Shown here one piece after another: positions 36,605 to 41,034 of a stretch of DNA of 64,000 nt (positions are counted from its first letter, which is position 1; each line of letters starts with the position of its first letter). The notes beneath the pieces were generated by a model, which saw only the letters and a list, made by a program, of their open reading frames with translations, did not search any database and had not been told where the DNA came from. The stretch spans positions 1 through 64,000 of the forward strand of contig JACPYM010000002.1 of NCBI GenBank assembly GCA_016196035.1, written 5' to 3'. The translations under genes and the position numbers were made by a program. The stretch is from Acidobacteriota bacterium. GTDB taxonomy: Bacteria; Acidobacteriota; Blastocatellia; RBC074.

Positions 36605-37162
36605 ATGCTGAACCCAATCGCCGAATTTGATCGCACCTTCAGCCTGTGGGTTCACTCGCGCGCGCAACCCTGGCTGGATGCCTGGATGAGCGCGCTCACG
36701 CGCGGCGGCGAGCCGCGGACGTTATTGCTCTTTGCCTTGCTGTGCGGCGCGTTCCTGCTCATCCGGCAGCGGCGCAAACGCGATCCCGCGCTGTTGTTGC
36801 TGGCTTTCAGCCTGAGCTATCTGATCAATCCCCAACTCAAACTCTTTTTCCAACGCGCCCGCCCGCAACTCTGGGACACCCTCATTGTGCGGCCTGGCGA
36901 TTACAGCTTCCCCAGTGGACACGCAACGTCGTCAATGGCAGTGTATGGCATGGTGGCGCTACTGCTGGCGCAAGCATGGCCGCGGTGGCGTTGGTATTTT
37001 TGGTTGAGCGCGGCCTTGTTGATCTCGCTGATTGGCTTCAGCCGCGTCTATCTCGGCGTGCACTGGCTGACCGATGTGCTGGGCGGATTCATGCTTGGCG
37101 GCGCGCTGGTTTACGCCATCGCCTTCCTCATTCGCCACTCAAATAAACATAACGCAAAATAA
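36605..37162 (+). CDS. PAP2-family phosphatase
   Basis: A 185-residue membrane phosphatase. The three PAP2 motifs are present: KLFFQRARPQ (motif 1), PSGHATSSM (motif 2) and SRVYLGVHWLTDVLGG (motif 3), within five or six helices. Likely substrates are phosphatidic acid or undecaprenyl pyrophosphate at the outer membrane face. Start ATG 36605; the element at 36515-36594 supplies its immediate upstream DNA. Its 3' end overlaps the opposing permease gene by 35 nt. Confidence 0.92.
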   Translation: MLNPIAEFDRTFSLWVHSRAQPWLDAWMSALTRGGEPRTLLLFALLCGAFLLIRQRRKRDPALLLLAFSLSYLINPQLKLFFQRARPQLWDTLIVRPGDYSFPSGHATSSMAVYGMVALLLAQAWPRWRWYFWLSAALLISLIGFSRVYLGVHWLTDVLGGFMLGGALVYAIAFLIRHSNKHNAK

Positions 37163-38453
37163 ACAGCACCGCTAACACATACACCATCGGACTCGCCTCG
37201 CGCGCCCGCCCCGTCAACACTTTCAGCAGGGCATAAAAGATAAAGCCCAGCGCCAAGCCATTCGCAATCGAAAACGTCAGCGGCATCGCCAGCAAAGTCA
37301 GAAACGCGGGCAAGGCTTCGGTCAAATCGTCCCATTTGATCGAGAGCACGGAGCGGATCATCAACGCGCCCACCAGCACCAAGGCCGGCGCCGTCGCAAT
37401 CGGCGGAATCGCTCCGGCAAGCGGCGCAAAAAACGTCGCCAGCAAAAACAGAAACGCGACGACAACTGCTGTCAAACCGGTGCGCCCGCCTTCGCTCACG
37501 CCGGTCGCGCTTTCGATATATGTCACCACCGTCGAAGTCCCAAACAGCGAACCGGCAATCGTCGCAATCGCATCGGCCAGCAAGGCGCGATTAACGCGCG
37601 GCAGTTTGCCCTCCGCCGTCAAATAGCCCGCCTGCTGCCCCAAGCCCATCAGCGAACCAATCGTGTCGAACATGTCCACGAACAGAAACACGAAGACGAT
37701 GTCGAGCAGCCCCACGCGCAACGCGCCGCGAATATCCAGTTGCAAAAACGCCGACTGCCAATCCGGTTTTTGAATCAATGCCGTCGGCGGTTTCGCCACG
37801 CCCAGCGCCATCGCCGCCACGGTCACGGCCAGAATGCCGATGATGATCGCGCTCTTGTAGCCGCGCGCCATCAGCGCCGCCGTTAGCAACAAACCAATCA
37901 GCATCAGCACGACCGGCTTCGACGTGATGTGCCCCAGCGTCACAAAGGTCGCGGGCGAAGCGATCACGATGCCCGCGTTCTTCAACCCGATAAACGCGAT
38001 GAACAGGCCGATGCCCGCCGCCACCGAGGTTTTCAATGTCAGCGGAATCGCATCCACGATCAACGTGCGAATGCGCGCCAGCGTTAAGACCAAAAACACT
38101 ACGCCAGAGATGAACACCGCGCCCAACGCTACGCGCCAATCGTGCCCCAGCCCTTTCACCACGGTGTAAGTGAAATAGGCGTTCAGCCCCATCCCCGGCG
38201 CTAGCGCGAAGGGATAATTCGCCAGCACGCCCATCAACAGCGATCCCACCGCCGAGGCCAGACACGTCGCAAACAAAGCGCCGGCAAACGGCACGCCCGC
38301 TTCGTTCAGAATCGCCGGGTTGACGAAGATGATGTAAGCCATCGTCAAAAACGTCGTAACTCCGGCAGCAATCTCGGTGCGGATGTCGGTGCCGTGCGCC
38401 GAAAGCTCGAAGAAACGTTCGAGCCTGGCTTGGCAAGAAGTGATAGCAGTCAT
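37128..38453 (-). CDS. NCS2-family purine permease (AzgA/PbuG-like)
   Basis: A 441-residue transporter with 12-14 helices of the adenine/guanine/hypoxanthine branch of nucleobase permeases. The hallmark stretch LAPGMGLNAYFTY is present, along with TMAYIIFVNPAIL near the start and ESATGVSEGGRTGLTAV later. It imports purine bases with protons. The ATG at 38453 lies 2 nt after the stop of the selenoprotein gene, implying coupled translation and perhaps a common role in nitrogen-compound use. Confidence 0.93.
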   Translation of the reverse strand: MTAITSCQARLERFFELSAHGTDIRTEIAAGVTTFLTMAYIIFVNPAILNEAGVPFAGALFATCLASAVGSLLMGVLANYPFALAPGMGLNAYFTYTVVKGLGHDWRVALGAVFISGVVFLVLTLARIRTLIVDAIPLTLKTSVAAGIGLFIAFIGLKNAGIVIASPATFVTLGHITSKPVVLMLIGLLLTAALMARGYKSAIIIGILAVTVAAMALGVAKPPTALIQKPDWQSAFLQLDIRGALRVGLLDIVFVFLFVDMFDTIGSLMGLGQQAGYLTAEGKLPRVNRALLADAIATIAGSLFGTSTVVTYIESATGVSEGGRTGLTAVVVAFLFLLATFFAPLAGAIPPIATAPALVLVGALMIRSVLSIKWDDLTEALPAFLTLLAMPLTFSIANGLALGFIFYALLKVLTGRAREASPMVYVLAVLFILRYVYLSGE

Positions 38454-38455
38454 AG

Positions 38456-39196
38456 TCAATCCATGAATTCCGCGAGCACAGGCACATCATTGCGCGGCAA
38501 CAATGCCAATGCCGCTGCAATCACACGGTGTTGCAATTCGACATTGTTCGGCGCGCCCAGCGGAAACCCCAGCGGGAACGGCACAAACAACGTGCGGGGC
38601 GGTTTGATAATCGCGGCGACCTCACGCAACAACGACAGCGAAACTGTTGTGATCCCTGCGCGTTCGAGCGCCGCTTGCACCAGACCGACCGTCTGGTTGC
38701 ACATCGGTCAGACGGGCGTCAGCAACGCCACTTCGACACCATCGTCGCGCAACCTGCGCGCCACCGCCGGGGCCGTCTCTTCAATCAATTTGCCGGGGCC
38801 GACAATCGAACCCATAAAACTGAAATGCCGATAGTTCAACGCGCCGATTACGCCCTGCGCCGTCAACTCACGAAACCGTTCGAGCGGGAAGGCCAGATTG
38901 CGGTCGGCCTCGATGCCCGTGTGGTCAAAGGCGTAGCTGCGATGCGATTCGATCAGCGTCGGCACATCCACGTCATTCGGGATTTCCCGAAATGACGTAT
39001 CGCCCATTTTGATCGAATGATCGAACTCAGCCTGTTCAGGTGTACGCAATCCGGCGGTCGTGACGAGGGCCACGCGCGCTTGGCTGAGCGGCTTCCGCAA
39101 CGGCGCGCACGGCACGGGGTCAAGCGTGTAGCGCGCGAACGGATAGCCTTTCATAAACAGCCTGACGTGCAGGCTGAGATCGTCGTAAGTTGCCAT
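38456..39196 (-). CDS. GrdB/PrdB-like selenoprotein, UGA decoded as selenocysteine
   Basis: A 246-residue member of the glycine/sarcosine/betaine/D-proline reductase selenoprotein B family, split in an ordinary reading by an in-frame TGA at 38708-38710 (residue 163). Around it the protein reads VALLTPV-U-PMCNQTVGLVQ, where Sec and Cys166 form the UxxC redox pair, placed exactly where family homologues carry Sec or Cys. The rest fits without a break: N-terminal ARVALVTTAGLRT, DHTGIEADRN, and C-terminal VPFPLGFPLGAP. A SECIS-like hairpin begins 7 nt after the UGA. The start is ATG 39196; the frame opens farther up to 39304. Likely a selenol-dependent reductase; substrate unknown. No sel genes are in the window, so the decoding machinery must lie elsewhere. 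Confidence 0.88.
38676..38701 (-). promoter_or_regulatory. Candidate bacterial SECIS element
   Basis: On the coding strand, ACCAGAC and GTCTGGT pair around the loop GGTCG, extended by TGC/GCA past one bulged A. The apical loop starts 17 nt after the UGA at 38708-38710, within the spacing known for bacterial SECIS elements, and opens with two G as expected. The structure is inferred by eye. Confidence 0.7.
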
Positions 39197-39288
39197 TTTT
39201 TTGTGAGATGAACGTGCTCGAACTGCGCGTCGTGTTTCTAGCACAGCCCTTAGGCAATGCCAACGTTGACCTGAGCAAGGCATTCCCA

Positions 39289-39380
39289 ATTCTTCATTCG
39301 CCATTCTACCTTCTCTTGCAGGAGGGCCCTCTCCAACAGCCTGCCTACTGCAAGAGAATGGAGAATGGCGAATGGAGAAT
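39289..39380. repeat. Imperfect inverted repeat, 33-nt arms
   Basis: Arms at 39289-39321 and 39348-39380 (CTGCAAGAGAATGGAGAATG at the right) pair with a few mismatches around a 26-nt spacer. It lies between two divergent genes and resembles the other palindromic intergenic elements in the window, though its sequence is different. Confidence 0.75.
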
Positions 39381-39483: not shown

Positions 39484-41034
39484 ATGCGTCTACTCGAATT
39501 CTGGTTCCATCATCAGGCCGAATTTCTCACGGCCATCCTGCGCCACATTGCGCTGGTTGCCGTTTCGACCGGCATCGCGGTCTTGCTGGGCGTGCCGCTG
39601 GGCGTGTTGGCGCAGCGACGGCCACGGCTGGGCGTGCCGCTGTTGGGCGTGGCGAATGTGCTGCAAACCATTCCCAGCCTGGCGCTGTTCGGCTTTTTGA
39701 TCCCGCTACCGCTGATCGGCGGCATCGGGGCGAAGACGGCCTTGATCGTGTTGACGCTATATGCGCTGTTGCCGGTGATGCGGCTGACGGTCAATGGCCT
39801 GCAAAGCGTCGAGCGGCCCTTGCGCGAAGCCTCGATGGCGCTGGGGCTGACCGACGCGCAGACCTTGCGCTATATCGAATTGCCGCTGGCGCGCCCTTCG
39901 ATATTGGCGGGCATTCGCGTCGCCACCGTGGTCGGCGTGGGCACGGCGACCATCGCGGCAGCCATCGGCGCGGGCGGGTTAGGCGAATACATCTTTCGCG
40001 GCGTCGCCAGCGTGGATAGCACCGTGATCCTGGCGGGCGCGATTCCGGCGGCCTTGTTGGCATTGGCCGCGGACGGGGCGTTGGGCTGGTTGGAACGCTG
40101 GCTCGCGCCCGGCCACAAACGCAACCCGCGTGGTTTGCTGATCGCGGCGGCTTCAACGGCATTGGTTTTAGTCTTGCTAACAGGTGGATTGTTGCTGGCC
40201 GAACGCAAAGGCGGGCGCATCGTCGTCGGTTCTAAAAACTTCACCGAGCAAGTCATCCTCGGCGAATTGCTGGCGCAAGTGATCGAACGCAACACGCCGC
40301 TCGCGGTCGCGCGCAAGCTCAACCTGGGCGACACGCTGGTCTGCGAGACGGCCTTGCGCGCGGGCGATCTTGATCTTTATGTCGAATACACTGGCACGGC
40401 GCTGACGGCGATTTTCAAACAGCCGGTGCTGCTCGATGCCGACGAGGTCACGCGCCGCGTCGCCGCTGGCTATGCCGCGACGGAACGCACGATGCTGCCG
40501 CCGCTGGGTTTCAACAACACCTATGTAATTCTGGTGCGTGGCACAGAGGCCCGCCAGCGTGGGCTGAAAACGATTTCGGATGCGGCGCGCATTTCCTCGC
40601 AGTTGCGGGCGGGTTTTGGCGCCGCCTTTCTGGATCGCGAAGACGGCTATCGCGGCTTGGTGCAAGCGTATGGGTTGAAGTTTGCCGCAACGCCGCTCTC
40701 AATGGATTTGTCGCTGACCTACCGCGCGCTAGCCGAGCGCCAGGTAGATTTAATCTCAGGCGATGCGACCAATGGCTTGATCGCCAAGCTGGATTTGTTT
40801 GCGTTGGAAGACGACCGGCATTATTTCCCGCCCTATCACGCCGTGCCGGTCGTGCGGAACGAAACGTTGCAACAGCATCCTGAGCTGCGCCCGCTGCTCG
40901 AACGCTTGAGCGGATTGATTTCGGATCAGGAGATGCGGCAGATGAATTACGAAGCCGAGGTCGAACGCCGCGAACCCGCCGCCATCGTGCAGGCGTTTTT
41001 GGCGCGCCACCCGCAAACCTTGCGCAAGCCCTGA
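39484..41034 (+). CDS. Osmoprotectant ABC transporter, permease fused to substrate-binding protein
   Basis: A 516-residue fusion. Residues 1-210 are an OpuBB/ProW-type permease with about five helices and the EAA-like loop REASMALGLTDAQTLRYIELPLA. After a helix (LIAAASTALVLVLLTGGLLL) comes an OpuCC-type binding domain starting VGSKNFTEQVILGELLAQ, with LDLYVEYTGTALT and ISGDATNGLIAKLDL, the known quaternary-amine binding signature. Such fusions occur in glycine betaine, choline or proline betaine importers. The ATPase partner is not next to it and must be encoded elsewhere. Start ATG 39484, since the frame upstream runs through a repeat. Confidence 0.92.
   Translation: MRLLEFWFHHQAEFLTAILRHIALVAVSTGIAVLLGVPLGVLAQRRPRLGVPLLGVANVLQTIPSLALFGFLIPLPLIGGIGAKTALIVLTLYALLPVMRLTVNGLQSVERPLREASMALGLTDAQTLRYIELPLARPSILAGIRVATVVGVGTATIAAAIGAGGLGEYIFRGVASVDSTVILAGAIPAALLALAADGALGWLERWLAPGHKRNPRGLLIAAASTALVLVLLTGGLLLAERKGGRIVVGSKNFTEQVILGELLAQVIERNTPLAVARKLNLGDTLVCETALRAGDLDLYVEYTGTALTAIFKQPVLLDADEVTRRVAAGYAATERTMLPPLGFNNTYVILVRGTEARQRGLKTISDAARISSQLRAGFGAAFLDREDGYRGLVQAYGLKFAATPLSMDLSLTYRALAERQVDLISGDATNGLIAKLDLFALEDDRHYFPPYHAVPVVRNETLQQHPELRPLLERLSGLISDQEMRQMNYEAEVERREPAAIVQAFLARHPQTLRKP

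Follow-up and report, generated by a model that had tools for sequence, protein, structure and literature searches.

Two adjacent open reading frames on the minus strand, lying in one frame and parted by a TGA, raise the question whether they are two protein fragments or one selenoprotein, and, if one, whether it serves amino-acid reduction as its clostridial namesakes do. The window, by which we mean the whole stretch of 64,000 nucleotides that was analysed, belongs to a host genome of 9.6 Mb whose nearest relatives are Acidobacteriota, several of them labelled Blastocatellia.

The in-frame UGA and the selenocysteine machinery

When the region was read with translation table 11, two ORFs in one frame were obtained, 39304..38708 and 38704..38456, split by TGA CCG as the first-pass annotation had claimed. 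Readthrough of this UGA, from the ATG at 39196 to the terminal TGA at 38458-38456, gives a 246-residue protein containing VALLTPV-U-PMCNQTVGLVQ, and the UxxC site that the annotation had obtained by joining the two ORFs was thus confirmed by translation. The protein had also been described as uninterrupted on both sides of the UGA, which agrees with the open frame and with a predicted structure that is confident across the site (mean pLDDT 96.5). The features concerned are:

38456..39196, minus strand: PrdB-like gene, predicted to contain selenocysteine (Sec) by UGA readthrough at codon 163, 246 residues
38708..38710, minus strand: in-frame UGA, assigned as selenocysteine 163 from translation and comparison with relatives
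38699..38701, minus strand: codon of Cys166, which completes the UxxC motif and did not vary in a 37-sequence alignment

The same codon was UGA in every relative of at least about 49% identity that covers the site, and in-frame TGA was found in seven phyla, namely Acidobacteriota, Poribacteria, Planctomycetota, Myxococcota, Actinomycetota, Schekmanbacteria, and Latescibacterota. The gene was present in all 11 genomes of the host's order, with one in-frame TGA in the site-covering copy of each. Within the phylum 396 genomes were sampled, and the in-frame TGA was present in each of the 27 whose match reached E < 1e-60. It was likewise present in all the relatives fetched from other phyla, and the more distant matches in the sample were a mixture of TGA-containing and TGA-free genes. 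If the gene were decayed, if the TGA were a sequencing error, or if two separate proteins were made, the two ORFs of the standard reading would be accounted for. However, the identical TGA occurs in independent assemblies from many phyla, the sequence flanking the UGA is strongly conserved on both sides, and the hairpin described below covaries, and therefore we consider this explanation to have a negligible probability.

In the TGA-free distant relatives that were examined the Sec column holds Cys, Ser, Asp or Glu. It had been expected that Cys homologues would align at residue 163, and Cys was indeed found there in several distant relatives (L174, L176, L177, L178, L179, L181, and L184); the residue at this site of L127, L129, and L135 is U. 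A Cys/Sec redox exchange is thus visible at the codon-163 column, and from the Ser, Asp and Glu forms it would seem that the chemistry has been lost or altered in some distant branches. Class-mates of the host have a Ser-for-Sec homologue with the site S-R/K-LC-H/Y-QT/S (L168-L173, L182, and L183), in most cases downstream of a conserved small membrane-protein-like gene. The function of these Ser-type homologues may have changed, and the position of the Ser group in the tree was left unused because several long branches meet there.

A search of the genome for selA, selB, selC and selD had been proposed as a check, and the absence of all Sec machinery as the result that would count against the claim. 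What was found instead is the full set: selA with 582 bits, selB with 364 bits, which is above its cut-off, tRNA-Sec with 66.9 bits and anticodon TCA, and selD with 362 bits. In the 396-genome sample selA exceeded its cut-off in 241 genomes overall and in 26 of the 27 that carry a TGA orthologue, counts that come from related and hence not independent genomes. The exception (G102; 91% complete, 750 contigs) has a TGA orthologue and no selA was seen in it. In five genomes (G183, G198, G221, G282, and G383) selA was not over the cut-off and the homologues were all TGA-free. Decoding of the UGA as another amino acid, through a suppressor or general recoding, has nothing in its favor beyond the open frame. 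Against it stand the use of TGA as the terminal stop of the same gene, the presence of SelB and of a tRNA-Sec with a UCA anticodon in the genome, and the Cys found at the site in several homologues, and we regard it as having scarcely any chance of being right. The host selD gene (locus L030, C88:97181-98110) has one in-frame TGA of its own and for this reason SelD is probably itself a selenoprotein.

The hairpin downstream of the UGA

Bacterial SECIS elements are hairpins located just downstream of the UGA with a G early in the loop, and the hairpin found in the window has both of these properties:

38679..38697, minus strand: SECIS-type hairpin of 7 bp with loop GGTCG (stem 38697-38691 with 38685-38679, loop 38690-38686)

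The stem starts ten nucleotides after the UGA and the loop 17 bases past that codon, so that the GG-starting loop reported 17 nt downstream by the first-pass annotation is indeed present. When the window hairpin alone was examined under synonymous recoding it was not significant (P = 0.13) and the case for it therefore rests on comparison. For this, 93 distinct ungapped sequences were used with columns numbered from the U of the UGA, and the seven-pair helix is made by columns 14-20 with columns 26-32. Pairing was observed in 97.1% of the cells compared to 86.5% in shuffled alignments and double changes in 69 cells compared to 24.9, both counts being inflated by the relatedness of the sequences; out of 500 shuffles none was as high as the observed pairing or double changes. 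When the partner was slid by one to three columns, pairing was at most 45.8%. RNAalifold, unprompted, recovered six of the seven pairs. Between columns 19 and 27, scored in 95 sequences, the pairs were T-A in 45, A-T in 37, T-G in 5, and G-C in 4; column 19 is the first base of a Thr/Ser/Ala codon and column 27 is the third position in a Gly/Ser/Cys codon further on. Synonymous recoding that kept the protein gave an expectation of 4.8 out of 7 pairs compared to 6.8 observed, and out of 13 TGA-free homologues in the same register 12 had 3 or 4 pairs and the remaining one had 6. An Rfam search at the hairpin gave nothing above chance. The reading of the UGA as Sec is thus backed by the conservation of the TGA, the covariation of the hairpin, and the full set of Sec genes, and on this comparative evidence it is close to certain that 38456..39196 encodes one intact selenoprotein, and not two fragments, with Sec inserted at codon 163.

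Family assignment and the search for partner subunits

The protein had been called GrdB-like. The name is only loosely right. The C-terminal part of the Pfam GRDB profile (PF07355, profile positions 210-345) matched with 31.3 bits against a gathering score of 22, but the protein is closer to PrdB: the best NCBIfam match was PrdB (TIGR04483) with 134.6 bits and all the Grd models scored lower, GrdB (TIGR01917) giving 39.0 bits for a protein of 246 residues compared to about 430 at full length. None of the Grd/Prd subunit models was matched at or above its cut-off (300 for PrdB, 602 for GrdB, and 65.45 for the subfamily). By these scores the protein is nearer to PrdB than to GrdB and we call it PrdB-like, identity with true PrdB being unsupported by the cut-off. 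It resembles PrdB, the 26-kDa Sec subunit of D-proline reductase, in length, in the UxxC site, and in alignment over residues 27-233. It differs from PrdB in its score, in that no PrdA partner was found, in lying outside any prd cluster, and in that none of the members found here comes from Firmicutes. With GrdB and its relatives GrdF/GrdH and FarB it shares homology to their C-terminal part and Sec in the same column, but it is about half as long as GrdB (431 residues) and no GrdE partner was found. The sequence at the Sec site is UPMCNQT, compared to UGTCTRC and UATCSRC in the GrdB-type proteins of genomes G127 and G335.

Neither PF09338 (glycine reductase component B, GrdE type) nor TIGR04480 (PrdA) had a match in the host genome and ten family members; the positive controls, G127 and G335, matched PF09338 with 414-418 bits and cover that model only. 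Among the other gene-carrying genomes that were searched, matches to the two models were confined to G335 and its family-mate G127. These two genomes have apparent clusters of the glycine/sarcosine-reductase type, with long grdB and grdE-type genes (L164-L167 and L186). Given that neither kind of partner was found, the PrdB-like protein is probably not a D-proline reductase.

In glycine and D-proline reductase, Sec is the nucleophile that acts on a carbonyl-held substrate, and a pyruvoyl group is used in D-proline reductase (PMC10298544). The GrdB family extends to other substrates, for example in FarB, for which an attack on the C-F bond of fluoroacetate with FarE as partner has been proposed (PMC10838667). 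The family TIGR04483 is listed in a 2026 review (PMC13188914). In two metagenomic surveys, selenoproteins with UxxC named 'Proline reductase PrdB' number 42 sequences from the Sargasso Sea (PMC1088965) and 235 in the GOS survey (PMC2398784), which found the family to be abundant in surface seawater. These are UxxC selenoproteins, like the window protein, and were found in oxic environments; they differ in that they come from metagenomes and took their name from the clostridial enzyme. Very likely they include proteins of the window type. PrdB-type selenoproteins have been catalogued since 2005 and the window protein adds a member, so that of the 'hidden' selenoprotein announced by the first-pass annotation what stands is that standard annotation splits the gene, the family being already known.

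Genomic setting and proposed function

The neighbors on the two sides of the gene are:

37128..38453, minus strand: purine permease (Xan_ur_permease, PF00860), its ATG at 38453, two bases after the PrdB-like stop
39484-41031, plus strand: ABC permease fused to an OpuAC glycine-betaine binding domain, oriented away from the PrdB-like gene

The gene does end 2 nt before the purine permease gene, as had been noted, and because of this gap the two are probably co-transcribed. The permease is downstream of the gene in 9 of the 11 genomes of the host's bacterial family, adjoining in most of the nine and separated by as much as about 1.1 kb in the others, and the linkage was not seen outside this family; judged from these loci, it is old and conserved there. 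That this is an unusual setting for a clostridial reductase was not upheld, the PrdB-like family being widespread outside Stickland fermenters in the Acidobacteriota sample, in other phyla, and in the marine surveys (PMC1088965, PMC2398784). In Poribacteria (L062 and other loci) there is a conserved cassette in which the Sec PrdB-like gene is flanked on each side by a Gfo/Idh/MocA oxidoreductase, and elsewhere the neighbors are GcpE, an E1 dehydrogenase component, and others. No neighbor is common to all loci and therefore no general function was drawn from context. The glycine-betaine ABC transporter was dropped as a clue to the substrate; it is unlinked in every relative examined. Upstream of the gene is a long imperfect palindrome, MITE- or REP-like (window 39289-39380), at which Rfam gave only sub-threshold miRNA matches.

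That the protein is a subunit of a genuine Stickland-type D-proline (Prd) or glycine/sarcosine/betaine (Grd) reductase could be argued from PrdB as its best family match, from the UxxC site they have in common, and from the divergent glycine-betaine type transporter gene. However, its scores are below the cut-offs at all three levels, a PrdA/GrdE-type gene was missing from the host genome and ten relatives even though the PF09338 positive controls worked, and the transporter gene does not accompany it in the relatives examined, and hence we hold this to be very improbable. Clostridial Stickland chemistry is accordingly an unlikely assignment for the window protein, and the joint claim that it is a selenoprotein of the PrdB-like family and not a Stickland reductase is one we would make with high confidence from sequence comparison.

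Because no PrdA/GrdE-type partner was found, the protein would most likely work as a selenol/thiol reductase, alone or with an unrelated partner, and not as a D-proline or glycine reductase; a partner from another protein family is conceivable. No significant hit came from PDB sequence searches, whether the query was the single sequence or a profile built on 37 sequences, and when the predicted model was run through Foldseek no hit fell below E 0.001. A second look with VIA-align gave a best Z of 8.6, to LacI-type and other alpha/beta folds, and since these matches are only middling the fold was not used to assign a function. In the mechanism that we propose, SelB and Sec-tRNA(UCA) would read the UGA at codon 163, steered by the hairpin just downstream, and the product would have a compact alpha/beta fold and a U-P-M-C site. 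The selenolate of Sec163 would attack an electrophilic or oxidised substrate, resolution by Cys166 would yield a selenenylsulfide, and the site would then be restored by a dithiol of the cell. We consider a UxxC selenol reductase mechanism with such a selenenylsulfide step to be evenly balanced between right and wrong.

One concrete form of this reductase mechanism, and compatible with it, is that of an antioxidant helper using thiol/selenol chemistry, such as a peroxiredoxin reductase or relay, acting against oxidative damage. The host genome has a second PrdB-like gene (C109:22652-23278) with an in-frame TGA, the site UPNVC, and 202 bits with TIGR04483. It is located just downstream of a Sec-type peroxiredoxin gene with a TPVU active site, and the pair is kept across the host's bacterial family. 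The pair in locus L009 is:

1180-1884 and 2036-2767 of the locus, both on the minus strand: C109 pair of PrdB-like and peroxiredoxin genes, both needing UGA readthrough

This pairing and the abundance of the family in surface seawater favor an antioxidant helper, but no peroxiredoxin gene adjoins the window gene in any orthologous locus examined and the neighbors of the window gene vary by phylum. The idea is therefore a tentative one for the window protein, and the general selenol/thiol reductase is the reading that we carry forward.

Standard gene calling breaks the protein into two pieces, and transfer of a family name would mark it as a proline or glycine reductase of the clostridial kind. 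It could equally well be true or not that a widespread PrdB/GrdB branch has left amino-acid reduction and become a stand-alone selenoenzyme free of a pyruvoyl partner, with a possible link to purine uptake in the host's bacterial family. Importantly, an intact and conserved selenoprotein that lacks the usual partner subunit makes the role of PrdB-like selenoproteins in PrdA-free bacteria testable in Acidobacteriota.
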